Source: Candidatus Hydrogenedentota bacterium (GTDB taxonomy: Bacteria > Hydrogenedentota > Hydrogenedentia > Hydrogenedentales > JAGMZX01). From it: a DNA stretch of 15,787 bases. The first letter of the stretch is position 1; each line of letters begins with the position of its first letter. The DNA lies in the NCBI GenBank assembly GCA_029556545.1, contig JAKQEQ010000026.1, forward strand, positions 1 through 15,787, given 5' to 3'. Below are positions 1-15,787 of this stretch, in pieces. A program made the translations under genes and the position numbers. The notes beneath the pieces are model-generated. The model made no database searches. It was not told the origin of the DNA and worked only from the letters and a program-made list of their open reading frames with translations.

Positions 1-1290
<1,290 letters not shown>

Positions 1291-1440: not shown

Positions 1441-2928
1441 ATGATATCGAAGAGTAACAGGACCAGGACATGGGGCCTGCTGGCGGCGCTCGTATTCGTG
1501 AGCGGCGTCGCGTTGGCGCAGGCGAACACGGTGACGTATCAGGGTGTCCTGCGGGACGCCGTCGGGGACCCCGTCGCGGACGGGCCCTACGCGATGAGTT
1601 TCGGTGTCTTCGCGGCGGAATCCGGCGGGTCACCCCTCTGGACGGAATCGCAGACCGCCACGACGTTGAACGGCGCGTTCTCCGTCGAGTTGGGCGCGGT
1701 GACGCCGCTGGGGACGTTGTTTGTTGACAACGCGGGCGGGGCGTTGTGGCTGGAGGTGTCGGCGGACATCGGGGGCGGCATGCAGGCGTATTTGCCGCGC
1801 GTGCCATTGACCCGCGCGCCCTACGCCTTTCACGCGACCCATGCCGACAGCGCGGACACCGCGGACAGCGCCGGTAACGCGGACACGGTGGACGGCAAGC
1901 ACGCGGCGGACATCGACGCTGATATCGGCACGGCGGTAAGCGCGCACGACGTGAGCGGCGCGTCGCACGGCGACATTCGCGGGCAGATCGGCACGGATAT
2001 CGCGGCGCATGACGCGAGCGGCGCGGCCCACAACGATATCCGCACGCAAATTGGGACGGACATCGCGGCGCACGACGCGGATACCGGGGCGCATGCGGCG
2101 CTCGAACTGGATGCGGCGCAGATTACTTCGGGCAAACTCAGCAATGATCGCCTGACCATGGGCCATGGCGGCGGGATCGACGCGGATAAGCTGGACGGCC
2201 TGGAGTTGAGCAGTATCCAGGGCTTTGTGACCACGAACATCACTAACAACATCAACGCGCATAACGGCAACCCAACGGCGCACCAGGACATACGGGACAA
2301 GATCGGTACGGACATCGACACGCACGACGACGACAGCGGCGCGCATGCAAACGCGTTCAGCGCCCATAACGGCGACGCCGCCGCGCATCCCGCGCTCCAT
2401 ATGCCGCCCGGCGTGGTCATGCCGTACGCCGGGGCGGCCGCACCGGCCGGTTATCTCCTGTGTGCGGGGCAGGCCGTCTCGCGCACGACCTATGCGGCGC
2501 TCTTCGCGGTGGTCGGGACTACCTACGGCGCGGGCGACGGCAGCACGACGTTCGGCCTGCCGGACCTGCGCGGGCGCGGTCCCATCGGCCTCGACAACAT
2601 GGGCGGGAGTTCCGCCAATCGCGTCACCGCCGTGGAGGCGGACGCGCTCGGCGGGGCCGCGGGCGCGGAAACACACACGCTCAGCGTGGCCCAGATGCCC
2701 GCCCACAACCACGGCGTCAACGACCCGGGACACGCACATACGTATTATCGCCCCCGGGATGAGAATCTGTGCGTGAACTGGGGTATTGGTTGTGATAACG
2801 GCAACTGGATGGACCCGATTGGTTCCTCGACGAACACCACGGGCATCACGATTGCGAACGCGGGGAGCGGGCAGGCGCACAACAACATGGCGCCGTACAT
2901 GGCGATGAATTACATCATCAAGCACTGA
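1441..2928 (+). CDS. Secreted fibre-like protein 1 with phage tail-collar C-terminal tip
   Basis: A 495-residue protein. The start at 1441 is chosen because AGGAGG lies 8 nt upstream and the N-terminus MISKSNRTRT then matches its paralogues; an in-frame ATG at 1372 would only prepend non-conserved leader. Residues 1-27 form a signal peptide ending ALA-Q. Residues 28-133 are the conserved head (TVTYQGVLRD to PYAFHA), a domain common in secreted bacterial tail-fibre-domain proteins. Residues 150-315 form a stalk with DTVDGKHAADI, 21-residue DIR.QIGTDIAAHD repeats and DADKLDGLELSS, recalling phage fibre shafts. Residues 323-495 match the phage tail-collar family: PAGYLLCAGQ, GDGSTTFGLPDLRGR, MPAHNHGV and a terminal NMAPYMAMNYIIK. 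No phage assembly genes lie nearby, so a cell-surface or exported fibre is more likely than a virion part. The partner or receptor is unknown. Confidence 0.88.
   Translation: MISKSNRTRTWGLLAALVFVSGVALAQANTVTYQGVLRDAVGDPVADGPYAMSFGVFAAESGGSPLWTESQTATTLNGAFSVELGAVTPLGTLFVDNAGGALWLEVSADIGGGMQAYLPRVPLTRAPYAFHATHADSADTADSAGNADTVDGKHAADIDADIGTAVSAHDVSGASHGDIRGQIGTDIAAHDASGAAHNDIRTQIGTDIAAHDADTGAHAALELDAAQITSGKLSNDRLTMGHGGGIDADKLDGLELSSIQGFVTTNITNNINAHNGNPTAHQDIRDKIGTDIDTHDDDSGAHANAFSAHNGDAAAHPALHMPPGVVMPYAGAAAPAGYLLCAGQAVSRTTYAALFAVVGTTYGAGDGSTTFGLPDLRGRGPIGLDNMGGSSANRVTAVEADALGGAAGAETHTLSVAQMPAHNHGVNDPGHAHTYYRPRDENLCVNWGIGCDNGNWMDPIGSSTNTTGITIANAGSGQAHNNMAPYMAMNYIIKH
2128..2243 (+). repeat. Near-identical block shared with fibre-like gene 3 (inverted copy)
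   Basis: This stalk segment matches the minus strand of 10846-10961 at 114 of 116 bases. The core also matches 4671-4744 in gene 2. Silent positions are conserved here but not in flanking parts of the same genes, which suggests gene conversion or recombination. Confidence 0.85.
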
Positions 2929-3008
2929 GCCGGAATTCGCTTCCTTAGACCGATCCGGCAGTGTGACGCATCTCCGCGGCGCCGCACGCGAGCGTCATGG
3001 ACCTGTGC

Positions 3009-3069
3009 TATAATAGGTGTCGGTGAGCCAAGGGAGGTTGCGTCTTCAGCGCAACGCAACAGAAGGAGG
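3009..3069 (+). promoter_or_regulatory. Promoter -10, structured leader and RBS of the 41-residue gene
   Basis: A consensus TATAAT lies at 3009-3014, without a clear -35. A 7-bp hairpin GTTGCGT/ACGCAAC (3037-3043 and 3054-3060, 10-nt loop) is followed at once by AAGGAGG (3063-3069), 9 nt before the ATG at 3079. The hairpin would sit next to the ribosome site and could modulate translation. Confidence 0.5.
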
Positions 3070-3078
3070 CATGGGACG

Positions 3079-3204
3079 ATGGACAAGTTCAACCCCCAAC
3101 CCGAGCCGCCCGGACGAGAAAGTAACGTTCTTGACTGGATCTCCTTCATTTTTCAGTACCTATTGTGGATCGTGACCCTTCCCTTCCAGTGGATTGCGGT
3201 CTGA
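3079..3204 (+). CDS. Small single-span membrane peptide, 41 residues
   Basis: ATG at 3079 is preceded by a strong AAGGAGG with 9-nt spacing and by a TATAAT 65 nt upstream. The peptide begins MDKFNPQPEPPGRESN, a polar, proline-rich N-terminus. It continues with one strongly hydrophobic aromatic segment from about residue 17 to 41 (VLDWISFIFQYLLWIV, then TLPFQWIAV), ending at TGA. The out-of-frame ATG at 3071 sits only 1 nt from the Shine-Dalgarno and gives a low-complexity Ser/Thr/Pro product, so it is rejected. I do not recognise the family. Length and topology fit small regulatory membrane peptides or a type I toxin-like peptide, but no antisense RNA or antitoxin is evident. It lies between fibre-like gene 1 and the MITE-like element. 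Confidence 0.6.
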   Translation: MDKFNPQPEPPGRESNVLDWISFIFQYLLWIVTLPFQWIAV

Positions 3205-3527
3205 CCGCGCCAAGTACGCCTGTCTGTTGTCATCTCGGCGCCGGCGTCCCAGCACCGGGGTTCTCCCGGCGCCGCGGACCTGGAATCGTTTTGCGCATCC
3301 GGTCGGAGATGACGTACCCACGAGGCGTGCGGCGCGGGTAAGGGCGAATTCCGCACGCAGATCCGCACGGGCATGGCGACGCACCCCGGGAGTGCCTCGT
3401 CCGTTTGCGTGGGAGGGGGCGTCTTGTTACACCGCGGAAGCGGTCTGTCGGTTTAGACCACCGTGGCTGTGAGCAGGAACCGACGGCGGCTATTCCACTA
3501 GTGATCTTGGGTAAGCGCACTTCATTT
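3205..3527. other. Non-coding stretch with inverted repeats
   Basis: No convincing gene: the open frames here are short and arginine-rich, lacking RBS and domain signs. It contains GTCATCTC (3229-3236) facing GAGATGAC (3306-3313), and inside this GGCGCCGG (3237-3244) facing CCGGCGCC (3266-3273). Further stems lie at 3431-3484 (described separately). Confidence 0.6.
3425..3527 (+). ncRNA. Candidate structured RNA upstream of a terminator-like hairpin
   Basis: ACCGC-GGAA-GCGGT (3431-3444) is a hairpin closed by a GNRA-type tetraloop. It is followed by GTCGGTT (3447-3453) pairing with AACCGAC (3478-3484) around an internal CCACCGTGG. A terminator-like hairpin with a T-rich tail follows at 3528-3552. 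It matches no RNA family I can name (not tRNA, tmRNA, RNase P or SRP by motif). It could equally be the 3' UTR of the 41-residue gene or random GC-rich pairing. Confidence 0.25.
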
Positions 3528-3552
3528 AGCCCGCCTTGGCGGGCTCTTCTTT
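3528..3552 (+). terminator. Rho-independent terminator-like hairpin
   Basis: AGCCCGCC TT GGCGGGCT followed by CTTCTTT on the plus strand. It would end transcripts from the 41-residue gene or the candidate RNA. It is also the outermost part of the left arm of the MITE-like element. Confidence 0.55.
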
Positions 3553-3752
3553 GCACCCGCATTTATGCGGGGTGAAACGGGGACCGCATATACAGATAAG
3601 CGCGCTTCAGCGCGGCATTTCAACGGCTTCAGCATTGTTTCCACGCTGAAGCAGTTCGCCAAGCGGCGCTGAAGCGCCCTCTTCGCGAAAGAAACAGCCG
3701 CTTACACCCCGCGTGAACGCGGGTGCAAAGAGGAGCCGCGCTAAAGCGCGCT
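3528..3752. mobile_element. MITE-like non-autonomous element with 47-bp imperfect inverted termini
   Basis: The left arm 3528-3574 and the reverse complement of the right arm 3705-3752 align at about 38 of 48 positions, including an unbroken CTTTGCACCCGC. Each arm itself folds into two hairpins: a GC stem at the outer end, then CCCGCAT/ATGCGGG (3556-3571) or CCCGCGT/ACGCGGG (3708-3723). Differences in the inner hairpin keep pairing. The interior holds GGCTTCAGC (3625-3633) facing GCTGAAGC (3645-3652), CGCGC-TTCA-GCGCG (3601-3614) and GGCGCT-GA-AGCGCC (3665-3678). It has no coding capacity and no clear target duplication. A transposase-mobilised MITE or an REP-like cassette is inferred. Confidence 0.6.
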
Positions 3753-3874
3753 GACAAATCCGGCACGCTTCTCGATAAGAAACATGGCGGAATATGGTTG
3801 CCCATTCGCATATGCTTGGGCGGTCTCCGGTGAATTCGACAGACCCGGGCGCGATGTCACGAGGCGGATGCCCC

Positions 3875-3956
3875 TATTGCAAAATCGGGGGAAATGATAT
3901 AATCCGTCTTTCGAGGTTTGAGGGAAGGCCCGGAGCCTATACAGGAGAGTACGGCA
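3875..3956 (+). promoter_or_regulatory. Promoter and leader of fibre-like gene 2
   Basis: TATAAT at 3898-3903 has TATTGC (3875-3880, 17-nt spacer) or TTGCAA (3877-3882, 15-nt spacer) as possible -35. GGTTTGAGG downstream is shared with the leaders of genes 1 and 5. A small hairpin AGGC-CCGGA-GCCT (3926-3938) again has a 5-nt loop and precedes AGGAGAG (3943-3949), 7 nt before the ATG. Confidence 0.5.
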
Positions 3957-5453
3957 ATGATATCGAAGTGCAGCAAGGTCAGGACATGCGCCGTGGCGGC
4001 GGCGCTCGTATGCGTGAGCGGCGTCGCATTGGCGCAGGCGAACACGGTGACGTATCAGGGCGTGTTGCGCGACGTCGCGGGAGACCCCGTAGTGGACGGT
4101 CCCTACGCGACGAGTTTTGGGATATTCGCGGCGGAATCGGGCGGGTCGCCGCTGTGGACGGAATCGCAGACGGCGACGACGTCGAACGGGGCGTTCTCCG
4201 TTCAATTGGGCGCGGTGACGCCGCTCGGCACGCTGTTCGCCGATAATGCGGGCGGGGCACTGTGGCTGGAGGTGTCGGCGGACGTCGGGTCGGGCATGCA
4301 GGCGTACTTGCCGCGCGTGCCGGTCACGCGCGCGCCTTATGCCTTCCACGCGACGCGCGCGGACAGCGCGGACACGGCCGCAAGCGCCGGTGACGCCGAC
4401 ACGGTGGACGGCAAGCATGCCGCGGACATCGACGCGGACATTACTGGCGCGGTGGGCGCGCACGACGTCAGCGTGACGGCGCACAGTGACATTCGAACCC
4501 AGATCGGTGCGGACATCGGCGCGCACAACGTCAGCGGGACGGCGCACAGCGATATTCGCGCGCAGATCGGGACGGACATTACCGCGCACGACGGCGATTC
4601 GGGCGCGCACGCGACCATCGAACTGGACGCGGCGCGGATTACTTCGGGCACGCTCAGCAATGCTCGCCTGAACATGGGCCATGGCGGCGGGATCGACGCG
4701 GATAAGCTGGACGGCCTGGAGTTGAGCAGTATCCAGGGCTTTGTCACGAGTCACAACAGCAACGCGGCGGCCCACGCAAATATCGAATTGGACGCCGCGC
4801 GAATCACTTCGGGCACGATCGATATAGGGCGGCTGCCCACGGGCACCACCGGGTCCGACGTTGCGCTGGGGGATCACGTGCATGACGGGGCGCACATCGC
4901 GACGGGCACGGTCAGCACGGACCGTTTTTCGGCCTACAACGACCTGACGGCGGAGAGCAAGATTGGGGCCGGCGCGGCGCAGGTGGCGGCGGGCAACCAT
5001 GTCCATGACGGGGCGCATATCACGACCGGGACCATAGATTTCAACCGGCTCCCGGTCGCGGGCACCGGTTCGGCGAGCACCGTCGCCCGGAGCGACCATA
5101 CGCACCCGCAGAAGTGGCTCGTGACGAAAGCGATTCCTTATGCCGGATCGGGCTACCCAAGGAGCGGCAATTTCTCGTGCAGCACAGGGAGTACCATACT
5201 ACTCTTTGCCTCGGCGAGCGCGTACCTCGGCGGCGCGGGGACGATGCAGGTCGATGTCCGCGTGGACGGCAGCACACGGGGCTCGCTGAGGGCGTTCACC
5301 AACGAAGGTCTCAGTCATAAAGCGCTCAACTCCGATGCAATCATAGTAACTGGACTTGGCGCCGGATTACACCAGGTTTCACTCGTGCTTGTCAGCGGCG
5401 CCGCGGATACCAATGACTATTCGCACGTGACCGTCGTCGAGTTAATACCGTAG
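3957..5453 (+). CDS. Secreted fibre-like protein 2 with unique C-terminal tip
   Basis: A 498-residue paralogue of protein 1. The ATG at 3957 follows AGGAGAG with 7-nt spacing and gives MISKCSKVRT, like the paralogues. Residues 1-27 are a signal peptide (GVALA-Q); 28 to about 133 are the shared head; then come DTVDGKHAADI, two 21-residue DIR.QIG.DI.AH repeats and the DADKLDGLELSS motif. The shaft continues with phage-fibre-like units, GDHVHDGAHIATGT and GNHVHDGAHITTGTIDF. The tip (386-498, from KWLVTKAIPYAGSG to VTVVELIP) is beta-rich and has no paralogue in the window; its layout (variable core, VDVRVDG, GLGAGLHQVSLVLV) resembles the tips of proteins 3-5 in outline. Ligand unknown. It converges with the propeller gene, whose end is 45 nt away. 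Confidence 0.85.
   Translation: MISKCSKVRTCAVAAALVCVSGVALAQANTVTYQGVLRDVAGDPVVDGPYATSFGIFAAESGGSPLWTESQTATTSNGAFSVQLGAVTPLGTLFADNAGGALWLEVSADVGSGMQAYLPRVPVTRAPYAFHATRADSADTAASAGDADTVDGKHAADIDADITGAVGAHDVSVTAHSDIRTQIGADIGAHNVSGTAHSDIRAQIGTDITAHDGDSGAHATIELDAARITSGTLSNARLNMGHGGGIDADKLDGLELSSIQGFVTSHNSNAAAHANIELDAARITSGTIDIGRLPTGTTGSDVALGDHVHDGAHIATGTVSTDRFSAYNDLTAESKIGAGAAQVAAGNHVHDGAHITTGTIDFNRLPVAGTGSASTVARSDHTHPQKWLVTKAIPYAGSGYPRSGNFSCSTGSTILLFASASAYLGGAGTMQVDVRVDGSTRGSLRAFTNEGLSHKALNSDAIIVTGLGAGLHQVSLVLVSGAADTNDYSHVTVVELIP
4671..4744 (+). repeat. Gene 2 copy of the conserved stalk block
   Basis: 74 bases match gene 1 (2155-2228) and gene 3 (minus strand) with one mismatch each, while the sequence immediately downstream diverges completely. 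It encodes the MGHGGGIDADKLDGLE region. Confidence 0.85.
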
Positions 5454-5498
5454 AGCGGCAGGCGAAACACGGGGACGCGAATGCGGGCGCGCCGTCGA

Positions 5499-6746
5499 TC
5501 AGGGTTCTTTGGTCGGCGGCGGGAGGAACGGGAGCGGGCCGGGGGCCAGGTCCGCGCAGAGCGCGGTGATGCGTTCGAGTTCGTCGGGTGTAATCTCGCG
5601 ACGCCTCATGCGGATGCACCCGTAGCGGAAGTCGCCGCGCCGCTGGCCCGCGTAGGCGAGGTATATCCAGGTCTTGCCCGCGTCCTTAATGACCGTAGCC
5701 TCGGGGACATGGTTGGCCTGCACGTCGTCGTCCGCGTCGATGTAGCCGAGCAATATCCAGTCGCGGCCGTTAATCGAGGCGGCTTCGGTGGTCTTGCGCC
5801 GGGTCCATCCGTCGCCGGGGTGTCCGCCGGGGTCGGCGTAGGCGTAATAGACGTCGCCGACGCGGACCACGTCGGGATTCGGGAATTCGTAGATGCAGGG
5901 GTTGTCCATGCCGCGGAGAATCTTCCAGTCCGCCGGATTCATGAAGTCGCCCACGTTCTCGGCGTAGAGCATCATGCAGGGCTTGCCGTAGACGCAGGAA
6001 TCGAACCAGATTTTGAACCGGCCGTCTTCGTGCAGGATCGAGGGCCGGTGATAAATCCCGGTGGGATGCTGATAGCCGCCGGGCTCGACGGGTGCCTGGC
6101 CGATGTTCGCCGCGTCCACGAGGATGGGCGCGTCCGAGATGCGCCAGCGCAGCCCGTCGTCGGAGGTCGCGCCCATGATGCAACTGATATCCGAGTCGGT
6201 GTCGCCGGGCCGGCCGTAGGGGATGCCGTCGAGGTTGAAGCCCGTGGCGCTGTAGGCCATGTGGAAGGTGTCGCCCACGCGCACGACCGAGGGGTCGCCG
6301 ATGTGCCAGTTGTTGTAATAGCGGTCGCCGCCCGCGATGACCGGGACCCAGCGCGCGGGCGTCATGGTCGCGTCCCAGGCCGCTTTGCCGTCCTGTTCCC
6401 CCGCATAGACCTCCCAGGGGCCCGTGATGGCCGGGGCGCGCGCCGCGCAGATGGCGTCGCAACCGGGATAGCCGGGATTGCAGTCCTCGACCATCCAGCC
6501 GAAGAACCAGCCCTTGAAGGGATAGGCCGGGTCCTCGGGCGTTTCGAGAACGTGGAGGTTGTACATGTTGTGGAAGCGGTGGAGGAGGTTGCCGCCGACG
6601 GGCGTCCACTCCGCGGTGCGATTCACGTAGCGGCCATAGTCCTGCGCTTGGGTCGCCGCCGTTGCCGTGCATAGCAGGACGACCAGGAGGCTTCGCGCGG
6701 AAGCCGCGCCCGGCGGTGTCATGAGTCGAGCGCGATTCTTCTTCAT
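5499..6746 (-). CDS. Secreted beta-propeller glycosidase-like protein (GH43/GH32-type fold)
   Basis: A 415-residue protein. The ATG at 6746 (MKKNRARLM) is preceded by AAGGAA at good spacing; a longer frame upstream is not signal-like. A signal peptide (about 1-35) ends ATQAQ. Recurrent blade openings of the five-bladed propeller seen in GH32/GH43-type enzymes are visible: HNMYNLHVLE (about 59-68), GDPSVVRVGDTFHMAY (150-165), HRPSILHEDGRFKIWF (233-248), FPNPDVVRVGDVYYAYAD (288-305) and VPEATVIKDAGKTWIYLAYAG (347-367). Acidic residues in GDPSV, ADPGG and PEATV are candidate catalytic or ligand positions. It probably acts on extracellular polysaccharide, but the exact family and activity cannot be assigned. 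It is divergent from the DUF1080-like gene and the two share an upstream region. Confidence 0.7.
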   Translation of the reverse strand: MKKNRARLMTPPGAASARSLLVVLLCTATAATQAQDYGRYVNRTAEWTPVGGNLLHRFHNMYNLHVLETPEDPAYPFKGWFFGWMVEDCNPGYPGCDAICAARAPAITGPWEVYAGEQDGKAAWDATMTPARWVPVIAGGDRYYNNWHIGDPSVVRVGDTFHMAYSATGFNLDGIPYGRPGDTDSDISCIMGATSDDGLRWRISDAPILVDAANIGQAPVEPGGYQHPTGIYHRPSILHEDGRFKIWFDSCVYGKPCMMLYAENVGDFMNPADWKILRGMDNPCIYEFPNPDVVRVGDVYYAYADPGGHPGDGWTRRKTTEAASINGRDWILLGYIDADDDVQANHVPEATVIKDAGKTWIYLAYAGQRRGDFRYGCIRMRRREITPDELERITALCADLAPGPLPFLPPPTKEP

Positions 6747-6914
6747 GCGATATCGTTCCTTACGGTTACCCCCGAGTCGGGGGCAGTGTATCACAGTCCG
6801 CGAGACGGCGAGGCGGTTGTTTTGCGCATTGTCCGGGAAATGCTATGTTGATCGGCGGCGTTCGCCGTGTCCGCTGCCGGGCGGGCCCTGATCAACGCCA
6901 GTGGAGGTTCGAGA
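6747..6914. promoter_or_regulatory. Divergent promoter region with palindromes
   Basis: Lies between the propeller gene (-) and the DUF1080-like gene (+). A 15-base palindrome CCCCCGA-G-TCGGGGG (6769-6783) sits 23 nt from the propeller start. GTTGATC (6847-6853) faces GATCAAC (6890-6896). TTGCGC (6822-6827), 16 nt, TATGTT (6844-6849) is a weak promoter candidate for the plus gene. GGAGG (6903-6907) is the Shine-Dalgarno for the ATG at 6915. The palindromes could be operator sites or leader hairpins. Confidence 0.4.
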
Positions 6915-7685
6915 ATGCGAAACCGCGCGGGGAATCTGAAATGGTATCGTGTGGCGTGCCTGCTGTTGCCGGCGCTTGTGCTGCTATCGCCGTCCGACGG
7001 GTGGGCGGCATCTGACGAGGCGGAGGAACCTGCCGAGGCGCGGGAGACGCCCGAGGCGCTCGAACCGGTTGCGGGATTCGCGCTGCGGCACAACGCGGGG
7101 ACGGACGGTCAGGCGCAGCCGGGGCCGATGCGGGAGAGCGCGGACTGGCGCGTCTCCGATTTCGCGGGGAAGGGCGCGGTGCGGGTCGAGGACGGGGTGC
7201 TGTACCTCGAGGAGGGCAACGACATGACGGGTGTGACGTGGCGGGGTCCGCTTGTCCGAAAGGATTACGAAATCACGTTGGAGGCGATGCGGGTGGACGG
7301 CAGCGACTTTTTCTGCGGGCTGACGTTTCCCGTTGGGGAGGACCCGTGTTCGCTGATACTCGGGGGCTGGGGCGGGTCGCTGGTCGGCATATCGAGCATC
7401 GACTATCAGGATGCGGCGAACAACACGACGACGCGGATCATCGACTTCGAGAATGGGCGATGGTACCGGGTACGGCTGCGGGTGTACGGGGAGAAGATCG
7501 AGGCGTGGCTGGACGATGAGAAGATCGTCGACGTGGTTACCACGGGGCACAAGATCGGCATTCGGTGGGAGGTCGAGCCGTCGGCGCCGCTGGGCATCGC
7601 CACGTGGCGGACCACGGGCGCTATCCGCAATATGGAACTTCGGGCGCTGACGGCGACGCCGCCGGATTATGAGGTGAAGCGGTAG
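6915..7685 (+). CDS. Secreted DUF1080/LamG-like (concanavalin-fold) protein
   Basis: A 256-residue protein. The ATG at 6915 is chosen for GGAGG 7 nt upstream and for the signal peptide it creates (about 1-32, MRNRAGNL then a long hydrophobic run ending GWAA). A Glu/Ala/Pro-rich spacer follows (33-55). Residues about 70-245 look like the 3-keto-disaccharide hydrolase/DUF1080 or LamG-type jelly roll: GVLYLEEGND, RKDYEITLEAMR, then the typical tail FENGRWYRVRLRVYGEKIEA and WLDDEKIVDV, and GAIRNMELRAL at the end. Such domains bind or cleave sugars outside the cell; the substrate is not deducible. Its position back-to-back with a propeller glycosidase-like gene suggests a common polysaccharide-related role. 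Confidence 0.72.
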   Translation: MRNRAGNLKWYRVACLLLPALVLLSPSDGWAASDEAEEPAEARETPEALEPVAGFALRHNAGTDGQAQPGPMRESADWRVSDFAGKGAVRVEDGVLYLEEGNDMTGVTWRGPLVRKDYEITLEAMRVDGSDFFCGLTFPVGEDPCSLILGGWGGSLVGISSIDYQDAANNTTTRIIDFENGRWYRVRLRVYGEKIEAWLDDEKIVDVVTTGHKIGIRWEVEPSAPLGIATWRTTGAIRNMELRALTATPPDYEVKR

Positions 7686-7703
7686 GACCGCGCGGTTGCG
7701 GCC

Positions 7704-7843
7704 GGGGAGAGGGGATGCGTAGCCCTCACCCTGACCCTCTCCCACGGGGAGAGGGGATGCGTAGCCCTCACCCTGACCCTCTCCCGCGGGGAGAGGGGAT
7801 GTGTCACCCTCACCCTGACCCTCTCCCACGGGGAGAGGGGGTG
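7704..7843. repeat. 42-bp tandem repeat with strong hairpins
   Basis: Exact 42-bp spacing (units start at 7704, 7746, 7788, 7830): three full units and a partial fourth. Each junction holds CCCTCTCCC facing GGGAGAGGG across a 2-3 nt gap, a 9-bp stem. The sequence belongs to a widespread intergenic repeat type that translates as PHPDPLPRGEG. It lies between converging genes, so it may help end transcription from both sides. It is not CRISPR: there are no unique spacers. Confidence 0.9.
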
Positions 7844-7850
7844 CGTCCTT

Positions 7851-9932
7851 TTAAGCGGGGCCGGGGCAGAAGCCGTCCTCGGTGCCTTCGCCGGGGCAGG
7901 GGTGGTATCCGCCGCTATTGTAGAACTGGATAAGCCGCAGCAGTTCCGTCAGGTTGATGGTCCAGTCCGGGCCGGAGGGGGCGTAGTCGCTCGCGTGGGG
8001 CGTGCAGGCATGGTTTTCGCCGGGGCCGGGGACATAGCCGTCTTCGGTATCGCCGGGATTTGCCGCGCAGTGGAGCCCGCCCGAGTTATAGAACTGGATC
8101 ACGCGCAGCAACTCCGTCAACTCGATCAAGCCGTTCCCGTTCTGGTCCGCGGTGTGATTCGCCGGTTGTCCTTCGCCTTCACCCTCGCCTTCACCTTCGC
8201 CTTCACCCTCGCCCTCGCCCTCGCCTTCGCCTTCACCTTCGCCCTCGCCCTCACCTTCGCCTTCGCCTTCGCCCTCACCTTCACCTTCACCCTCACCTTC
8301 TCCTTCGCCCTCGCCTTCTCCTTCGCCCTCGCCCTCGCTCGGCGGGACCTCGACAAAGACGCCCGTTACGGTCTTGTCAGCGTCCATCAGCAGGAAGAGG
8401 GGATTTGTCGTTCCGCTTGCGTCGCCTTCCCAATGGTCGAATGCCCATTCTTCCTCGGGAATCGCGACGATGCGAACGGTTGCGCCCTGAGCGTGGTTGG
8501 TGACGCCCGCGGGCGTGATGGTTCCGTTGCCGACAACCTCGGTCGTGAGGGTGTGCATGACTTGGACGAAGACCGCCGTGATCGCCTTGTCCACGTCCAG
8601 GACTATCGTAGTCGGATTCTCGGAACCGGTAAGGTCCCCTTCCCAGTGGTCGAAGAACCAGCCGGCGGCCGGGGTGGCGCTGACGGTGATTTCGGCGCCG
8701 CCCGGGTGGGTCGTGGTGCCGATGGGCGGCGTGGTGGTTCCGCTGCCGACAATGGTCATGGTCACCGTGCGCGTGGGCAATTCGGAGAACAAGGCGGCGA
8801 CTATCTTGTTGCCGTCCATCAGGAGCGAGGTCGGGTTCTCGGAGCCGGTGACCGCGCCCTGCCACTCGACGAATTCCCAGCCGACGTGGGGCGTGGCGGT
8901 CAGGATGACCGTCGAGCCGGGATCATGGTACGTTTCGCCGGGCGGGTCGATGTCGCCGCCGCCCACGGCGGTGGTCGTCAGGGTGTACTGCATCCCGAGT
9001 TCCTGGAAGACCGCCGTGACCGTCATGTCGTAGTACATGGTCACGGTCGCCGGGTTCTCCGACCCGGTCACGTCGCCGAGCCACTCGATGAATTCCCAGC
9101 CTTCGTCCGGCGTTGCGGTCAAGACGACCTCCGCGCCGGGGGCGTGACTGGTCGAGCCGGGCGGGTCCACCGAACCGTTCCCCTGGACAAAGGTGGTGAG
9201 GTTGAAGCTGACGGCGGTGGTGGCGAATACGGCCGTGACCGCCTTGTCGCTATCCATGAGGAGCGATTCGGGATTATTCGAGCCGGCCAGGTCGCCCTCC
9301 CAATGGTCGAAGTACCAGTCCATCGAAAGAATAGCGGCGCGCACCTGCGTCACGCGGCCATCAAGGAACCCGGTCTCGCCCACGGGGGGCAGCGTCGCGC
9401 CGTACCCCTCAACAGACATGGTGAGCGTATGCGCCTGCGGTGAGAATACGGCCGTGACTTCCTTGTCGGCGTCCATGAGCAGGAATTGATGGTACGGGTC
9501 CGTGCCGGTCAGGTCGCCTTCCCAGTGGTCGAAAGCCCAGCCGGGGTCGGGTGTTGCGGACAGCATGGCGGTCTGCCCGCCGATGTATTCGTGGGATCCG
9601 GCAGGGGGCGATGTTACGCCGTTGCCGACAATGGCGATCGTAAGCGTGTAATTGGCCAGCTCGACGAAGACCGCCGTCACGTTCTTGTCGGCGTCCATGA
9701 CCAGCGGCACCAACGAAGATTGTGTTCCCGTGAGGTCGCCTTCCCAGTGGTCGAAGCGCCAGCCGGGGGCGGGGTTTGCAGACAGGAATACGGTCTGTCC
9801 GCTCTCGAATTCGTGGACCCCGGCCTCGGGTATGGTCGTGCCCTCCCCGACTATCGTAAGCGTTAACGTTTCCGCTCCGGCGACGGACGCGATTGTCGCC
9901 GCACACAAGATGAGAAGCCATTCCCCGCGCAT
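7851..9932 (-). CDS. Secreted seven-B-repeat protein with GE linker and EF-hand-like C-terminal module
   Basis: A 693-residue protein. The ATG at 9932 (MRGEWLLILC) has GAGGG upstream and starts a clean signal peptide (1-20, ending VAGA). Seven divergent InlB B-repeat-like units of about 73 residues fill 21 to about 529. Each runs TLT..V.GNG...P..G to FDHWEGDLTGS and ends MDADK.VTAVF; units 4 and 5 carry FIEWLGD/FVEWQGA instead of FDHWEGD. An acidic linker E(GE)27 spans 533-587. The C-terminus (588-693) is nearly identical to that of the first gene: the EF-hand-like loop DQNGNGLIELTE, two LTELLR.IQFYNSGG elements, and the ending DGFCPGPA. B-repeats of this kind are typical of large surface and adhesin-like proteins. 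It is last in a minus-strand run behind fibre-like genes 5, 4 and 3, 138 nt from gene 3. Confidence 0.88.
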   Translation of the reverse strand: MRGEWLLILCAATIASVAGAETLTLTIVGEGTTIPEAGVHEFESGQTVFLSANPAPGWRFDHWEGDLTGTQSSLVPLVMDADKNVTAVFVELANYTLTIAIVGNGVTSPPAGSHEYIGGQTAMLSATPDPGWAFDHWEGDLTGTDPYHQFLLMDADKEVTAVFSPQAHTLTMSVEGYGATLPPVGETGFLDGRVTQVRAAILSMDWYFDHWEGDLAGSNNPESLLMDSDKAVTAVFATTAVSFNLTTFVQGNGSVDPPGSTSHAPGAEVVLTATPDEGWEFIEWLGDVTGSENPATVTMYYDMTVTAVFQELGMQYTLTTTAVGGGDIDPPGETYHDPGSTVILTATPHVGWEFVEWQGAVTGSENPTSLLMDGNKIVAALFSELPTRTVTMTIVGSGTTTPPIGTTTHPGGAEITVSATPAAGWFFDHWEGDLTGSENPTTIVLDVDKAITAVFVQVMHTLTTEVVGNGTITPAGVTNHAQGATVRIVAIPEEEWAFDHWEGDASGTTNPLFLLMDADKTVTGVFVEVPPSEGEGEGEGEGEGEGEGEGEGEGEGEGEGEGEGEGEGEGEGEGEGEGEGEGEGEGEGQPANHTADQNGNGLIELTELLRVIQFYNSGGLHCAANPGDTEDGYVPGPGENHACTPHASDYAPSGPDWTINLTELLRLIQFYNSGGYHPCPGEGTEDGFCPGPA
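8172..8336 (-). repeat. GE-encoding hexanucleotide repeat, 27 units
   Basis: 165 nt encode E(GE)27 on the minus strand by mixed GG(C/T/A)GA(A/G) hexamers; the longest complete run in the window. Confidence 0.92.
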
Positions 9933-10070
9933 GATGTTTACCCTCGCGTTGTTTCCCTGGACCGCCGAATCAATATTCAAATCCCTTCTCGGCGCATCGC
10001 GCCGTGCGACGGCGGCGTCGCCGGGACCGCCCCGGTTCCCGCCTGCACCGTCGCGGCGTTCCGCGTTGCT
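9933..10070 (-). other. Intergenic gap between fibre-like gene 3 and the B-repeat gene
   Basis: 138 nt without a coding sign. It holds GGCGC-ATC-GCGCC (9991-10003) and an AT-rich patch near 9970-9985 that could host a weak minus-strand promoter. No T-tract terminator follows gene 3, so read-through into the B-repeat gene is possible. Confidence 0.4.
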
Positions 10071-11630
10071 CTACTCAAAGATAATGATATCAATATATCC
10101 CGAAGGTGGAGCATTGCTGCACCCCCAGATATTCGCCTGCGGACTCTGGAGCCACACGTTGTGCGTGCCCGCGGCCAGCACGCCGGACCAGGCCACGTGC
10201 GCGTTAACCCACTGTAAATCGGGGGTATAGGTTAGGGCGCGCGTCCGCCCGCTGCCGTCCACGACGAGCCACAGATCGGCCCGGCCCGTGTGGTAGCGCA
10301 TCATGTCGCCTGAGATACTCACGGCCGCGGGCCTGGTCAGTTCAAAGGTGACGGTCCAGAACGCGGTGGCGGCCGGATGGGGGTTGACCGGACAACCGCT
10401 GCGTGGGTCGTTGCTGTGGATGACGCGGGGAGATCTGGAAATGATGCCCGTCTTCTCATTCGCGACGGCTGCGTCGCCGGTGAATGCCAATGTGCCGTTG
10501 ACCTCAAGTCTCGCTCCGGGCGCAATCGTGCCTACCCCGACATTGCCCGCATTATCCACCGAGAGCGCGGGCGCGGGGCTGCCGTCCGGCGCATCGAGGG
10601 AGGAGTGGACGTGATTGCCGCGGGCTACTTGGTTCGCGGCGGCGCCCACGTTGAGCCGAGCCGTGTCGATGGTCCCGGTGGTGATGTGCGCGCCGTCATG
10701 GACATGGTCGCCCAGCGCGACCTGGTTCGGGGCCGTTCCCGTGGGGAGCCGGGCGATGTCCATCGTGCCCGTGATGATCTGGCCGGCGTCGATATCGAGG
10801 TTCGTGTGCGCCCCCGCCGTGTTGTTGTGGGCGTTGATGCCGTTGGTGATGTTCGTGGTCACAAAGCCCTGGATACTGCTCAACTCCAGGCCGTCCAGCT
10901 TATCCGCGTCGATTCCGCCGCCATGGCCCATGTTCAGGCGATCATTGCTGAGTTTGCCCGAGGTGATCCGAGCCGCGTTCAATTCGATGGTTGGGTGGGC
11001 GCCGGGATCGGCGTCGTGGGCGGCGATGTCCGTGCCGATCTGGGATCGGATATCGTCATGGGCCGAGCCGCTGGCGTCGTGGGCGGCGATGTCCGTGCCG
11101 ATCTGCGTGCGGATATCGCCGTGGGCCGCGCCGCTGGCGTCGTGCGTGCTTACGGCGGCGGAAATGTCCGCGTCGATGTCGGCGGCATGCTTGCCGTCCA
11201 GCGTGTCGGCGTCATCGGCGGTGGCGGCATGGGTTGCGTGGAAGGCGTAGGGCGCGCGGGTGAGGGGTACGCGCGGCGTATAGGCCTGCATACCCGCGCC
11301 GACGTCCGCCGAGACTTCGAGCCAGAGCGTCGCGCCCGCGTTGTCGGCGAACAGCGTGCCGAGCGGCGTGTCCGCGCCGAGTTCGACGGAGAACGCGCCG
11401 TTCGAGGTTGTCGCCGTCTGCGATTCCGTCCAGATGGGCGTGCCGCCTGTGTCCGTCGCGAAGATACCGAAACTCATCGCGTAGGGACCGTCCGCGACGG
11501 GGTTGCTGGCGACGTCGCGTAATACGCCTTGATACGTCACTGTGTTTGCTTGGGCCCAGATAACGCCCGTCATGAGGATGAGCGCCGCGAGAAAGCCACA
11601 GGTTTTAATCGTGCCGCCTTGTCGAATCAT
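10071..11630 (-). CDS. Secreted fibre-like protein 3
   Basis: A 519-residue paralogue. ATG at 11630 is preferred over the adjoining GTG at 11633; GGGAG lies 8 nt upstream. The signal peptide (about 1-27) ends VIWA-Q; the head runs to about residue 132 with the same TVTYQGVLRD to PYAFHA pattern, carrying the 'ATDTGGTPIW' variant shared with proteins 4 and 5. The stalk has DTLDGKHAADI, two 21-residue DIR.QIGTDIAAHD repeats and DADKLDGLELSS like proteins 1 and 2. GDHVHDGAHITTGTID units follow, then NVGVGTIAPGARLEVNGTL, a motif usual before tail-fibre tips. The tip (393-519) starts TGIISRSPRVIHS, has Cys in SGCP and WGC, and ends IDIIIFE. The tip family is unknown to me. Probably exported and displayed at the surface. 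Confidence 0.86.
   Translation of the reverse strand: MIRQGGTIKTCGFLAALILMTGVIWAQANTVTYQGVLRDVASNPVADGPYAMSFGIFATDTGGTPIWTESQTATTSNGAFSVELGADTPLGTLFADNAGATLWLEVSADVGAGMQAYTPRVPLTRAPYAFHATHAATADDADTLDGKHAADIDADISAAVSTHDASGAAHGDIRTQIGTDIAAHDASGSAHDDIRSQIGTDIAAHDADPGAHPTIELNAARITSGKLSNDRLNMGHGGGIDADKLDGLELSSIQGFVTTNITNGINAHNNTAGAHTNLDIDAGQIITGTMDIARLPTGTAPNQVALGDHVHDGAHITTGTIDTARLNVGAAANQVARGNHVHSSLDAPDGSPAPALSVDNAGNVGVGTIAPGARLEVNGTLAFTGDAAVANEKTGIISRSPRVIHSNDPRSGCPVNPHPAATAFWTVTFELTRPAAVSISGDMMRYHTGRADLWLVVDGSGRTRALTYTPDLQWVNAHVAWSGVLAAGTHNVWLQSPQANIWGCSNAPPSGYIDIIIFE
10846..10961 (-). repeat. Gene 3 copy of the conserved stalk block (inverted relative to genes 1 and 2)
   Basis: Differs from 2128-2243 at only two of 116 bases, on the opposite strand 8.6 kb away. 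Confidence 0.85.
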
Positions 11631-11753
11631 CACCCTTTCTCCCTGTGTATGCCGCCTTGTCCAAGCCTTGCCTCGTGCAAGGCAACCTTCATCATCGGGG
11701 GCACGATGCCCCCGATCCTGTCGTGGGCGCTCCAGCGGACGGACCGCGCCGTC
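11631..11753 (-). promoter_or_regulatory. Gene 4-gene 3 intergenic leader with two hairpins
   Basis: A perfect 10-bp stem ATCGGGGGCA-CGA-TGCCCCCGAT (11694-11716) is followed, towards gene 3, by GCCTTGC/GCAAGGC with a 5-nt loop (11665-11683). GGGAG then precedes the ATG. No T-run follows the stems on the minus strand. The arrangement parallels the gap in front of gene 4, so it is a conserved structured leader rather than random sequence. Confidence 0.55.
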
Positions 11754-13295
11754 CTATTCGAAAATCATGGTCGTGATGCGCCCATAGGAGGAACCGCAAC
11801 CGAAGACGTTTGCGCCGATTGCACTCCTTAACGAAACCGTGTGGGAACCCGCGGCAAGCACGCCGCCCCAGTGGGTATGGCTGTCGGTCCATGCCAAGTT
11901 GTAGGTATCGGCAATGTTGCGGTCGCGAAAGGCACCGTCCACGTATAATTCGAGATCGCGCCGGCCGGTGGCATAGCCTATGGTTTCGCCATGGATGATG
12001 ACAACCGCCGACCGGGTCAAGGTGAACGACTGTGTCCAGAGGTCGGTGCCTACCGCCGCGGCCGGCGGGCAACCGACGCGGGTGTCAGGCGTCATGATGA
12101 CGCGCGGCGACCTGGAGATGATGCCGGTCGTCTGACCCGCGACAGGCGCGTCGCCCGTGAACTTCAACGTGTTATTGACTTCAAGCTTGGCGCCGGGTGC
12201 GACGGTGCCTATGCCGACATTTCCAGCGTTGTCCACGGCGAGCGCTTGTGCGGGGTCGCCGTCCGCAGCGGCGAGGGAGGAGTGGACGTGGTTACCGAGG
12301 GCGACTTGACTCCCGCCGGTTCCGGTGGGGAGGCGCGCGATATCGATAGTTCCGGTGGTGATGTGCGCGCCGTCGTGGACGTGGTTGCCCAGCGCGACCT
12401 GGTTCGGGGCCGTCCCCGTGGGCAGCCGGGAGATGTCCATCGTACCCGAGATGATCTGTCCGGCGTCAATATCGAGGTTCGGGTGCGCCGACGCGGTGTT
12501 GTTATGGACACTGATCTTGTTGTCGGTGTTTATGCCGATATTGACGAGATGCGTGCCGTCGAGGGTGTCGGCGTCCAGCCCGCCGCCGGGCCCCGTGTTC
12601 AAGCGGAGATTGCTGATCTTGCCGGAAGTGATTTGCGCACCGTCTATTTCCAGGACCGAGTGCGCGCCGGGATCGGCGTCGTGAGCGGCGATGTCCGTGC
12701 CGATCTGCGATCGGATGTCGCCGTGGGCGGTCCCGCTTGCGTCGTGGGCGGCGATGTCTGCGCCGATTTGGGTTCGAATGTCACTGTGGGCCGCGCCGCT
12801 GGCGTCGTGCGTGCTTACGGCGGCGGCAATGTCCGCGTCGATGTCGGCGGCGTGCTTGCCGTCCAGCGTGTCGGCGTCATCGGCGGCGGCAGCCTGGCTC
12901 GCGTGGAAGGCATAGGGCGCGCGGGAAAGGGGCACGCGGGGCGTATAGGCCTGCATGCCCGCGCCGACGTCTGCCGAGACTTCGAGCCAGAGCGCGGCGC
13001 CCGCATTGTCGGCGAACAGCGTACCGAGCGGGGTTACCGCACCCAGTTCGACGGAGAATGCGCCGTTCGACGTCGCGGCGGTCTGCGACTCCGTCCAGAT
13101 CGGCGCGCCGCCGGTGTCCGTCGCGAAGATGCCGAAACTCATCGCGTAGGGGCCGTCCGCGACGGGGTCTCCGGTGACATCGCGCAGGACGCCCTGGTAC
13201 GTCACCGTGTTTGCCTGGGCCAGTGTGACGCCGCTCACGCACACAAGCGCTGCCAGCAGGCCCCATGTCCTGAATGTGTTTCCAATCTGAATCAT
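11754..13295 (-). CDS. Secreted fibre-like protein 4
   Basis: A 513-residue paralogue. ATG at 13295 (MIQIGNTFRT) has AGGGAG 8 nt upstream. The signal peptide ends VTLA-Q and the head is as in protein 5. The stalk has DTLDGKHAADI and two 21-residue repeats, then a segment absent from proteins 1-3: LRLNTGPGGGLDADTLDG, THLVNIGINTDNKISVHN. Two GNHVH units and NVGIGTVAPGAKLEVNNTL lead to the tip (389-513): TGIISRSPRVIM, Cys in VGCP and FGC, ending TTMIFE. The tip is homologous to those of 3 and 5 but well diverged, whereas 12341-12758 is 96% identical to gene 5 in DNA. Function unknown; probably a surface fibre. It lies 156 nt behind gene 5 and 123 nt ahead of gene 3. Confidence 0.86.
   Translation of the reverse strand: MIQIGNTFRTWGLLAALVCVSGVTLAQANTVTYQGVLRDVTGDPVADGPYAMSFGIFATDTGGAPIWTESQTAATSNGAFSVELGAVTPLGTLFADNAGAALWLEVSADVGAGMQAYTPRVPLSRAPYAFHASQAAAADDADTLDGKHAADIDADIAAAVSTHDASGAAHSDIRTQIGADIAAHDASGTAHGDIRSQIGTDIAAHDADPGAHSVLEIDGAQITSGKISNLRLNTGPGGGLDADTLDGTHLVNIGINTDNKISVHNNTASAHPNLDIDAGQIISGTMDISRLPTGTAPNQVALGNHVHDGAHITTGTIDIARLPTGTGGSQVALGNHVHSSLAAADGDPAQALAVDNAGNVGIGTVAPGAKLEVNNTLKFTGDAPVAGQTTGIISRSPRVIMTPDTRVGCPPAAAVGTDLWTQSFTLTRSAVVIIHGETIGYATGRRDLELYVDGAFRDRNIADTYNLAWTDSHTHWGGVLAAGSHTVSLRSAIGANVFGCGSSYGRITTMIFE
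12341..12758 (-). repeat. Direct repeat with fibre-like gene 5
   Basis: Matches 14051-14468 at a fixed offset of 1710 with 17 mismatches in 418 bases; 12450-12758 has only 8 in 309. Tips and leaders on either side are much more diverged. Confidence 0.88.
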
Positions 13296-13451
13296 GGTCC
13301 TTGCTCCCTTTGGTAGTCATGACGTCTCGTCCAATGTCTTGCCAAAGGCAAAACTATCTTCATCTGCCGCGGGCGTCCCGCCCGGCATTTTCGGGAGCAA
13401 GATGCCCCCGCTCCTGTCACGGGCGAGACGCCCGTGCCACGATAGCGCGAC
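13296..13451 (-). promoter_or_regulatory. Gene 5-gene 4 intergenic leader with interspersed palindromes
   Basis: In plus-strand order: TTGCC-AAA-GGCAA (13339-13351); CGGGC-GTCCC-GCCCG (13370-13384), the same loop as the palindrome at 15243-15255; and CACGGGCG-AGA-CGCCCGTG (13418-13436) followed by CCACG next to the 3' end of gene 5. The set resembles the gaps before genes 3 and 5. Confidence 0.6.
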
Positions 13452-15068
13452 TCACTCGAAGATGATGATATCCAGGGCGCCCCACGGCGCGGTGCAGCCC
13501 CAGACACTTGCCGAGGGGCTCTGCATCCACACGTTGTGCGAGCCCGCGTCGAGCACGCCGCACCAGAACACGTGGGCATCCACCCATTGAGTGTCGTAGG
13601 ATAGCGTCAGGGTGGTATCGCGCCACGAGTCCACGAACAGGTCCAAGTCCACGCGGCCCGCCGCGCTTCGGATGATATTGCCCGTCACGAACACGGCCGC
13701 GGGTTGGGCCAGCGTGAAGTTCACCGTCCAGAGCGGCGTACCGGCCGCACGGGCCGGCGGACAGCCCGATCCGTCCGGGTCGGCGCTGTGGATAACTTTC
13801 GGGGACCTTGTAATTTGCCCGGTTGACGTGCCCCCCGCCGCGTCGCCTACGAACGTCAGCGGCCCGCCCACGCGGAGCCCACCGTTAACATCGAGCTTCG
13901 CGCCGGGCGTGGTCGTGCCTATGCCGACATTTCCGGCGTTATCCACGGCGAGCGCGGGGGCGGGGTTGCCATCCGGGGCATCGAGGGAGGAATGGACGTG
14001 ATTGCCCCGGGCTACTTGGTTCGCGGCCGGTCCCACGTTGAGCCGAGCCGTATCGATGGTCCCGGTGGTGATGTGCGCGCCGTCGTGGACGTGGTTGCCC
14101 AGCGCGACCTGGTTCGAGCCGATTCCCGTGGGCAGCCGGGCGATGTCCATCGTACCCGTGATGATCTGTCCGGCGTCAATATCGAGGTTCGGGTGCGCCG
14201 ATGCGGTGTTGTTATGGACACTGATCTTGTTGTCGGTGTTTATGCCGATATTGACGAGATGCGTGCCGTCGAGCGTGTCGGCGTCCAGCCCGCCGCCGGA
14301 CCCCGTATTCAAGCGGAGATTGCTGATCTTGCCGGAAGTGATTTGCGCGCCGTCTATTTCCAGGACCGAGTGCGCGCCGGGGTCGGCGTCGTGGGCGGCG
14401 ATGTCCGTGCCGATCTGCGATCGGATGTCGCCGTGGGCGGTCCCGTTTGCGTCGTGGGCGGCGATGTCCGTACCGATCTGGGATCGGATATCGCTGTGGG
14501 CCGCGCCGCTGGCGTCATGGGCGGCGATGTCCGTGCCGATCTGCGTGCGGATATCGTCGTGGGCCGTGCCGCTGGCGTCGTGCGTGCTCACGGCGGAGGT
14601 GATATCGGCATCGATATCGGCGGCGTGCTTGCCGTCCAGCGTGTCGGCGTCATCGGCGGCGGCCGCCTGGCTCGCGTGGAAGGCATAGGGCGCGCGGGTG
14701 AGGGGTACACGCGGCGTATAGGCCTGCATACCCGCGCCGACGTCCGCCGAGACTTCGAGCCAGAGCGTGGCGCCCGCATTATCGGCGAACAGCGTACCGA
14801 GCGGGGTTACCGCGCCGAGTTCGACGGAGAACGCGCCGTTCGAGGTTGTGGCCGTCTGCGACTCCGTCCAGATCGGCGCGCCGCCGGTGTCCGTCGCGAA
14901 GATGCCGAAACTCATCGCGTAGGGGCCGTCCGCGACGGGGTCTCCGGCGACGTCGCGCAGGACGCCCTGATACGTCACCGTGTTTGCCTGGGCCAGTGCG
15001 ACGCCGCTCACGCACACAAGCGCCGCCAGCAGCCCCCACGCTCTGGTCCTGTCATTCCTCGGAATCAT
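13452..15068 (-). CDS. Secreted fibre-like protein 5 (longest stalk)
   Basis: A 538-residue paralogue. The frame extends upstream to 15299, but ATG at 15068 is chosen: AGGAGG lies 8 nt before it, the leader matches gene 1, and the extra 77 residues read an interspersed repeat (GMETLRSG and ILAGLRQRARDAQ types). The signal peptide ends VALA-Q. The head is as in protein 4. The stalk has three 21-residue DIR.QIGTDIAAHD repeats, one more than proteins 3 and 4; the extra unit accounts exactly for a 63-nt shift in alignment with gene 4. LRLNTGSGGGLDADTLDG, GNHVHDGAHITTGTIDTARL and NVGIGTTTPGAKLDVNGGL follow. The tip (415-538) starts TGQITRSPKVIHS, has Cys in SGCP, FWCGV and WGC, and ends LDIIIFE. 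Role inferred as surface fibre. Confidence 0.87.
   Translation of the reverse strand: MIPRNDRTRAWGLLAALVCVSGVALAQANTVTYQGVLRDVAGDPVADGPYAMSFGIFATDTGGAPIWTESQTATTSNGAFSVELGAVTPLGTLFADNAGATLWLEVSADVGAGMQAYTPRVPLTRAPYAFHASQAAAADDADTLDGKHAADIDADITSAVSTHDASGTAHDDIRTQIGTDIAAHDASGAAHSDIRSQIGTDIAAHDANGTAHGDIRSQIGTDIAAHDADPGAHSVLEIDGAQITSGKISNLRLNTGSGGGLDADTLDGTHLVNIGINTDNKISVHNNTASAHPNLDIDAGQIITGTMDIARLPTGIGSNQVALGNHVHDGAHITTGTIDTARLNVGPAANQVARGNHVHSSLDAPDGNPAPALAVDNAGNVGIGTTTPGAKLDVNGGLRVGGPLTFVGDAAGGTSTGQITRSPKVIHSADPDGSGCPPARAAGTPLWTVNFTLAQPAAVFVTGNIIRSAAGRVDLDLFVDSWRDTTLTLSYDTQWVDAHVFWCGVLDAGSHNVWMQSPSASVWGCTAPWGALDIIIFE
14051..14468 (-). repeat. Direct repeat with fibre-like gene 4
   Basis: Partner of 12341-12758 (96% identical). 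The neighbouring part of gene 5 (about 13947-14117) instead resembles gene 3 (about 10560-10730), giving a mosaic pattern. Confidence 0.85.
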
Positions 15069-15295: not shown

Positions 15296-15787
15296 TCACG
15301 CCGGCCCGGGACAGAAGCCGTCTTCGGTGTCGTCGCAGACATGATATCCGTTCGAATTATAGAGCTGAATCAGCCGCAGTAATTCCGTTAACCCGATCCG
15401 CCAGTCCGGCCCGGTGGGCGCGTAATCGCTTGCGTGGGGGCAACACGTCGTATCCGCGCCCGGGCCGGGGATATAACCGTCCTCCGTATCGCCCGGGTTT
15501 GCCGCGCAGTGGAGTCCGTCGGAATTGTAGAACTGAATCACCCGGAGCAGTTCGGTCAACTGGATGAGGTAATCATGATTCTGGTCCGCCGTATGCCACA
15601 GGCTTTCACAGGGGTCCGGCGGCGCCCCTTCGCCCTCGCCCTCGCCCTCACCTTCGCCCTCGCCCTCGCCCTCGCCCTCACCTTCACCCTCGCCCTCGCC
15701 CTCGCCCTCGCCCTCGCCCTCACCCTCGCCTTCGCCTTCGCCCTCGCCCTCACCTTCGCCCTCACCCTCACCCTCACCTTCGCCCCC
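15296..15787 (-). CDS. GE-linker protein with EF-hand-like C-terminal module (5' partial)
   Basis: The frame is open to the window edge, so the N-terminal domains lie beyond it. 163 residues are visible. Residues 1-53 are the (Gly-Glu) run; a short linker follows (APPDPCESLWHTA). The EF-hand-like loop here is DQNHDYLIQLTE, keeping D1, N3, D5 and E12 but with Tyr for the usual Gly at position 6. Two LTELLR.IQ.YNS.G elements and the ending DGFCPGPA match the other two proteins of this type. An extra Cys pair (TTCCPHASDY) is specific to this copy. It lies directly upstream of fibre-like gene 5 on the same strand (227-nt gap). The domain at its N-terminus cannot be seen, so its activity is unknown. 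Confidence 0.85.
   Translation of the reverse strand, partial: GGEGEGEGEGEGEGEGEGEGEGEGEGEGEGEGEGEGEGEGEGEGEGEGEGEGEGAPPDPCESLWHTADQNHDYLIQLTELLRVIQFYNSDGLHCAANPGDTEDGYIPGPGADTTCCPHASDYAPTGPDWRIGLTELLRLIQLYNSNGYHVCDDTEDGFCPGPA
15629..15787 (-). repeat. GE-encoding hexanucleotide repeat (continues past window)
   Basis: At least 26 Gly-Glu units on the minus strand made of GG(C/T)GA(G/A) hexamers, running to the last base. Confidence 0.92.

Follow-up and report, generated by a model that had tools for sequence, protein, structure and literature searches.

What does a bacterium do with five secreted, fibre-like proteins that share one front and end in different tips, and are these proteins its own or those of a phage? 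The question is raised by contig JAKQEQ010000026.1 of Candidatus Hydrogenedentota bacterium (assembly GCA_029556545.1; G000:C133 in our listing), hereafter the window, which is one complete contig of 15,787 bases in a 6.1-Mb, 96% complete genome of 195 contigs; the readable context ends at the contig ends. Taken as a whole, the evidence is best explained, and in our judgment probably explained, by five genes for cell-surface adhesive fibres of the mosaic adhesive trimer (MAT) type, akin to those of the predator Bdellovibrio bacteriovorus.

Five genes with a common front and exchanged tips

The original prediction, drawn from the letters of the DNA, placed five reading frames here and gave them a common signal peptide, head and repeat stalk. 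All five are present in those positions:

1441..2928 (+): fibre gene 1; signal peptide, MAT-like head, two coil units, stalk, Tail-Collar tip (residues ~324-495)
3957..5453 (+): fibre gene 2; head and stalk as in gene 1, four ITSGT-type shaft motifs, predicted C1q/TNF-like tip
10071..11630 (-): fibre gene 3; head, two coil units, beta stalk, Cys-containing, predicted C1q/TNF-like tip
11754..13295 (-): fibre gene 4; tip of the gene 3 class (tip blastp to gene 3, E 3e-59)
13452..15068 (-): fibre gene 5; tip of the gene 3 class, three coil units
1942..2079 (+): 63-bp (21-residue) coil units of gene 1 (Tandem Repeats Finder, unit listing)
4455-4593 (+), 11010-11144 (-), 12675-12809 (-), 14385-14582 (-): the other coil-unit arrays (Tandem Repeats Finder)

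Each gene encodes a signal peptide, a head of ~105 residues, 21-residue units (two in genes 1 to 4, three in gene 5), further shaft motifs and a C-terminal tip, within a protein of 495-538 amino acids. The shared front is borne out by the heads, which are 82-96% identical in pairwise amino-acid comparison, by a mean column identity of 86% over the N-terminal 178 columns, and by the 63-bp tandem units found in all five genes. At the nucleotide level, the identity of genes 1 and 2 is 75-90% as far as base ~900 and drops to 39-46% in most of what follows, the signature of a shared front and an exchanged back.

The tip of gene 1 is the collar that had been claimed (PF07484 Tail-Collar, E 3.6e-24, residues 324-379), and it matches the long tail fibre of PDB entry 8KEC (E 4.6e-15). 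The tips of genes 3 to 5 form one class (blastp E 9e-52 to 1e-59), to which the tip of gene 2 is 19-23% identical. Profile-profile comparison gave only a hint of a link between these two classes (probability 12%, E 0.0023); the matter of a common fold was decided by structural models. The model of gene 3, with a mean predicted local distance difference test score (pLDDT) of 55 overall and about 65-80 in most of the head and tip, places head strands at residues 31-123, after residues 1-28, a long helix at 145-207 and tip strands at 402-518; the tip is a predicted beta-sandwich with VIA-align Z scores of 11.4 to Cbln1, 11.2 to the PLTL lectin and 10.6 to BC2L-C. Modelled separately (pLDDT 72, predicted template modelling score 0.66), the gene 2 tip gives VIA Z scores of 10.9-9.6 (Pgp3 and EDA-A1 about 10.9, BC2L-C 10.5), and nearly all of its top 50 rows are C1q/TNF-fold proteins. 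That model took the gene 3-5 tips as alignment rows, and the two fold results are therefore not wholly independent. The tips of genes 2 and 3-5 are predicted to be C1q/TNF-like jelly rolls, and because they model alike, the three tip types of the original prediction stand as sequence classes and reduce to two folds. The solved Bdellovibrio tips were not among the top 50 fold matches of the gene 2 and gene 3 tips, which is uninformative either way. Solved members of the C1q/TNF and collar folds are trimers or trimeric fibre tips.

A genome-wide repertoire

The head recurs 15 times in the genome, at seven loci (five copies on C133, three each on C132 and C124, and one each on C25, C42, C134 and C190), and all 15 proteins, of about 320-600 amino acids (up to 1011 in relatives), carry the head domain by sequence. 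They end in at least seven classes of tip: the Pfam collar (gene 1, C124c), a collar-like class (C25, C124a, C124b), the gene 3-5 class, the C132 class, and the tips of gene 2, C42, C134 and C190. The comparisons point clearly to exchange of tips between common heads: the head of C25 is 94% identical to that of gene 1 and their tips are unrelated, whereas C25 and C124a have heads of 44% identity with tips that are 52% identical by blastp (E 7e-45); likewise, C134 and C190 combine 87% identical heads with unrelated tips. Relatedness of tips was judged from blastp because global end-free identities of unrelated tips are noisy (shuffled mean 29%, maximum 100%). Beside these, the fibres of C190 and of G001 (L044:6859-8652 and L050:687-2390) end in a common tip of ~170 residues, 58% identical, which by eye resembles an autoproteolytic chaperone tip.

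Among 68 genomes of the phylum, the head was detected in 10 at E 1e-6, none of the others with more than three copies, which argues for a local expansion in the present genome. Patterns from full-length alignments found nothing in close relatives because they came from near-identical paralogues; a head-only alignment succeeded. In relative G060, a tandem pair of short head proteins (frames of ~340-360 amino acids; L086:6009-8226, -) has collar-like ends ('...PDTHPVNAYVNYIVKY'). Further afield, heads lie on genome contigs of about ten phyla, which include Hydrogenedentota, Deltaproteobacteria, Eisenbacteria, Bacteroidota, Sumerlaeota, Neomarinimicrobiota, Acidobacteriota, Myxococcota, Phycisphaerae and other Planctomycetota, and the tips in this wider set of 39 head proteins comprise S74 (four), collar (two), collagen, YadA-head and parallel beta-helix. 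The reading of the window as a surface fibre system that the host itself encodes, with different tips borne on one stalk, is supported by the 15 head paralogues at seven loci with their unrelated tips, situated away from detected phage genes, and by the heads on genome contigs of these phyla.

Kinship with the Bdellovibrio MAT fibres

B. bacteriovorus has 21 MAT proteins with one conserved N-terminal domain, and their tips are of S74, novel beta-sandwich, TNF-like or C-type lectin type (Caulton et al. 2024, PMC10769870). They were shown on the predator surface, and one binds prey glycans (PMC10769870). The NCBIfam model of that N-terminal domain, NF053851 (Bdello_MAT_N), matches all five window proteins, with E values from 6.6e-6 (gene 1) through 1.6e-8 (gene 4) to 4.8e-9 (gene 5), and 34 of the 39 heads of the wider set (best 2e-11). 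The sole PDB sequence matches of gene 3 are likewise MAT fibres, 8OND (E 1.9e-4), 8OL4 and 8OJN, that is, Bd2133, Bd2439 and Bd3182, respectively (PMC10769870), and the sole PDB match of gene 5 is Bd2439 (8OL4, E 1.2e-4). The phmmer matches to 8OND and 8OL4, of modest score, point to kinship of the stalk with the beta-helix/prism stalks of MAT proteins. A profile of the 39 diverse fibres had no PDB match, because the set is too heterogeneous. The mosaic that characterizes MAT proteins, a conserved N-terminus with exchanged tips, is found in the fibres of the window and of the genome. Judged by sequence, these fibres are a Hydrogenedentota branch of MAT-like fibres, and we call them MAT-like relatives rather than Bdello_MAT_N members because their scores fall below the subfamily cut-off.

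Surface-protein genes beside the fibres

The remaining features of the window are these:

1..1290 (+), 5' end off contig: partner-type protein; InlB-B-like domain, (GE)n linker, duplicated TELLR domain (985-1284, +); 151 bp upstream of gene 1
7851..9980 (-): partner-type protein; about six InlB-B repeats (PF18998, E 3.4e-74), (GE)n, TELLR domain (7857-8156, -); downstream of gene 3
15296..15787 (-), 5' end off contig: partner-type protein; (GE)n and TELLR domain (15302-15595, -); 228 bp upstream of gene 5
5499-6794 (-): secreted protein, which may be a carbohydrate enzyme of the propeller type; its match to beta-1,2-mannobiose phosphorylase is very weak (E 0.0016)
6867-7685 (+): secreted protein with a 3-keto-disaccharide hydrolase domain (PF06439, E 1e-9)
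7703-7846: intergenic; 3.4 tandem copies of a 42-bp unit, CGGGGAGAGGGGATGCGTAGCCCTCACCCTGACCCTCTCCCA, with 93% matches; may be a REP-like element

All seven fibre loci directly adjoin a gene whose protein has, at its C-terminal end, a (Gly-Glu)n linker followed by a duplicated domain of ~100 residues with two EF-hand-like TELLR repeats, and by inspection this neighbour is upstream and co-directional at six of them. As genes with such a tail make up about 2% of all genes, assuming 5,000 genes, the probability of a seven-of-seven adjacency by chance is near 3e-10. The genome holds 112 TELLR matches, and two relatives hold 78 and 97. The domain (motif 'LTELLRxIQFYNSGG') has no Pfam or NCBIfam model and resembles a surface-sorting or docking tail specific to the phylum; it is weakly EF-hand-like, with sub-threshold matches only (best E 0.005). 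Five Cohesin-family matches occur in the genome, and that TELLR and Cohesin might relate as a dockerin-cohesin pair is a guess. A search of the literature on Hydrogenedentota adhesins, dockerins and sorting domains found nothing relevant.

A second domain, which we term SGGG, of ~50 residues (Y-x-L...SGGG...TxGQ...GGFW) and with no Pfam model, occurs in a neighbour at C134, C190 and C124, whereas the window's own neighbours are of the InlB/TELLR type. In Bacteroidota and Eisenbacteria, it precedes a type IX secretion tail (Por_Secre_tail). Its sites, at which a sorting tail particular to the lineage follows it, are:

L043:8856-9467 (-)
L044:8696-9433 (-)
L041:7031-10885 (+)
L055, L056, L059, L060, L065 and L066

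When head and SGGG profiles were searched in 16 whole genomes of other phyla, counting as linked those within 3.5 kb on the same strand, 24 of the 29 SGGG genes were linked to a head; leaving aside eight copies used to build the profile, it was 16 of 21, with 0.19 expected. The 16 genomes were picked for carrying a head, so these figures measure linkage inside head-bearing genomes. The idea that SGGG is exclusive to fibre loci was dropped, since copies without a detected head occur in Hydrogenedentota (3 of 10) and in the other phyla (5 of 29): the linkage is strong, not exclusive, and looser in Hydrogenedentota. Such adjacency shows a functional association, in which the partner may anchor the fibre. 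We tentatively extend this, as a conjecture more likely wrong than right, to the proposal that MAT-like heads across phyla have a dedicated small surface-sorted partner whose SGGG domain docks the head onto the cell and which is delivered by the sorting tail of each lineage (type IX in Bacteroidota, (GE)n/TELLR in Hydrogenedentota); such a partner would then be the 'surface element' not identified by the authors of the Bdellovibrio work.

Alternative explanations

Could the fibres belong to a prophage remnant, prophage cargo or a phage-derived contractile particle, as its tail fibres or collar proteins? Gene 1 ends in a phage Tail-Collar domain, for which there are many PHROG tail-fibre matches, and the remaining genes have stalk motifs that weakly match phage minor tail proteins. 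Yet phage tail fibres lie among virion genes and lack a signal peptide, as virion proteins assembled in the cytoplasm do, and the window fibres have signal peptides and, as the original prediction held, no phage gene around them. Nor is there one near the six other loci, whose flanks hold housekeeping, secreted-protein or carbohydrate genes, among them a B12-binding radical SAM protein, NrfD, phosphofructokinase, a glycosyltransferase, DNA polymerase III delta and GH10 xylanases. Neither the two pattern scans of 2.9 million viral contigs nor a tblastn search against 50,697 phage records detected the head; it is present on genome contigs of about ten phyla, and the genome's terminase-like matches (one family searched) are on the unrelated contigs C114, C119 and C66, none of which carries a fibre. 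We regard a phage origin of this kind as highly improbable.

Two other readings keep the fibres with the host and differ in what the tips would hold. As an extracellular carbohydrate-binding scaffold, the fibres would fasten the cell, or enzymes that it secretes, to polysaccharide, in a dockerin-like surface assembly and not in cell-cell recognition; the 3-keto-disaccharide-hydrolase-domain neighbour in the window, the GH10 xylanases at C190, the EF-hand/dockerin-like TELLR tail in its 112 copies, the Cohesin-family matches and the bacterial lectins PLTL and BC2L-C among C1q/TNF folds all agree with it. Set against these are the fibres themselves, which carry no TELLR or dockerin domain, the varied tips on one head, which are the MAT pattern, and the position of most loci away from polysaccharide genes; we consider this reading possible and on balance doubtful. 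It is compatible with cell recognition, the ligand being the difference. The elaborate outer coat suggested by the adjacent InlB-repeat, Ig and (GE)n surface proteins would also suit structural matrix or biofilm fibres that keep cells together by binding surface polymers of the producer itself. We think this unlikely, as tip diversification and sporadic presence in the phylum better fit variable foreign ligands. The adhesive fibres might bind other bacteria, a polysaccharide substrate or the cell's own matrix; the diversity of the tips and the patchy distribution lead us to favour variable foreign ligands.

A model for the fibres

In the MAT-type model that we prefer, the signal peptide would export each chain, the conserved N-terminal beta head would remain at the producer's surface, and the coiled-coil and beta stalk would project outward. 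The C-terminal module, of phage-collar or C1q/TNF type, would bind a surface ligand; glycans are the likeliest, either those of other cells or those of polysaccharide particles. The active fibres are most likely homotrimers. Duplication and recombination would swap tips onto the common head and stalk, giving about 15 fibres in the genome, and the adjacent surface-sorted proteins (InlB-repeat/(GE)n/TELLR here, SGGG elsewhere) probably supply attachment to the cell surface. The model builds on the architecture, the paralogy, the tip exchange, the predicted tip folds, the MAT head and stalk homology, the gene linkage and the lack of detectable phage context; ligand binding and the anchoring role of the neighbours are what we infer from it, as are trimer formation and surface display, the structure models being of single chains.

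Several observations weigh against the model. The NF053851 scores, 26-36 bits in the window and 18-26.5 in the genome-wide search, are well below the curated cut-off of 60, and the chains of the window are about half the typical length of Bdellovibrio MAT proteins, which is ~1000 amino acids with short forms of 626-843, a typical value and not a definition (PMC10769870). Only monomers were modelled, from a shallow alignment, and the gene 3 stalk (residues 209-400) came out disordered. We identified no dedicated route for outer-membrane export, and no surface biology or prey is known for this organism.

Implications and comparison with known systems

What is new here is that all seven fibre loci stand beside a surface-protein gene and that SGGG is linked to MAT-like heads in other phyla, which makes these neighbours candidate partners. 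Fibre repertoires like the prey-recognition set of Bdellovibrio would be a wider bacterial strategy, one that extends to uncultured phyla in which predation is not known and that makes use there of phage-collar and C1q/TNF tips. The linked partner gene is a concrete candidate for retaining the fibre on the cell, a matter that the Bdellovibrio work left open.

The Bdellovibrio MAT proteins are the closest likeness: both have a signal peptide, a beta-rich N-terminal head, a stalk and exchanged tips that include a TNF-like one, both occur many times over in a genome (15 copies here, 21 in HD100), and homology extends over the head and, to Bd2133, Bd2439 and Bd3182, the stalk. The present fibres differ in their sub-cut-off head scores, shorter chains, collar tips, coil of 21-residue units and co-encoded surface-protein partners, and in belonging to another phylum, without known predation. 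An S74 tip was not seen in the genome's own fibres scanned singly, whereas the wider set of 39 proteins includes four that end in S74. Phage Tail-Collar tail fibres (PF07484; PDB 8KEC) resemble the tip module of gene 1, but the fibres described here are secreted and host-encoded, with another head and no virion genes nearby. The bacterial C1q/TNF-like lectins and spore fibres BC2L-C (N-domain), PLTL and BclA resemble the predicted fold of the gene 2-5 tips at a sequence identity of about 6-13%, without a MAT-type head or stalk. Finally, trimeric autotransporter adhesins such as YadA follow a similar logic of trimeric stalk and head, and one relative of the head has YadA-head repeats, but the present fibres have no detected C-terminal YadA anchor and their polarity is reversed, the variable end being the C-terminal one.

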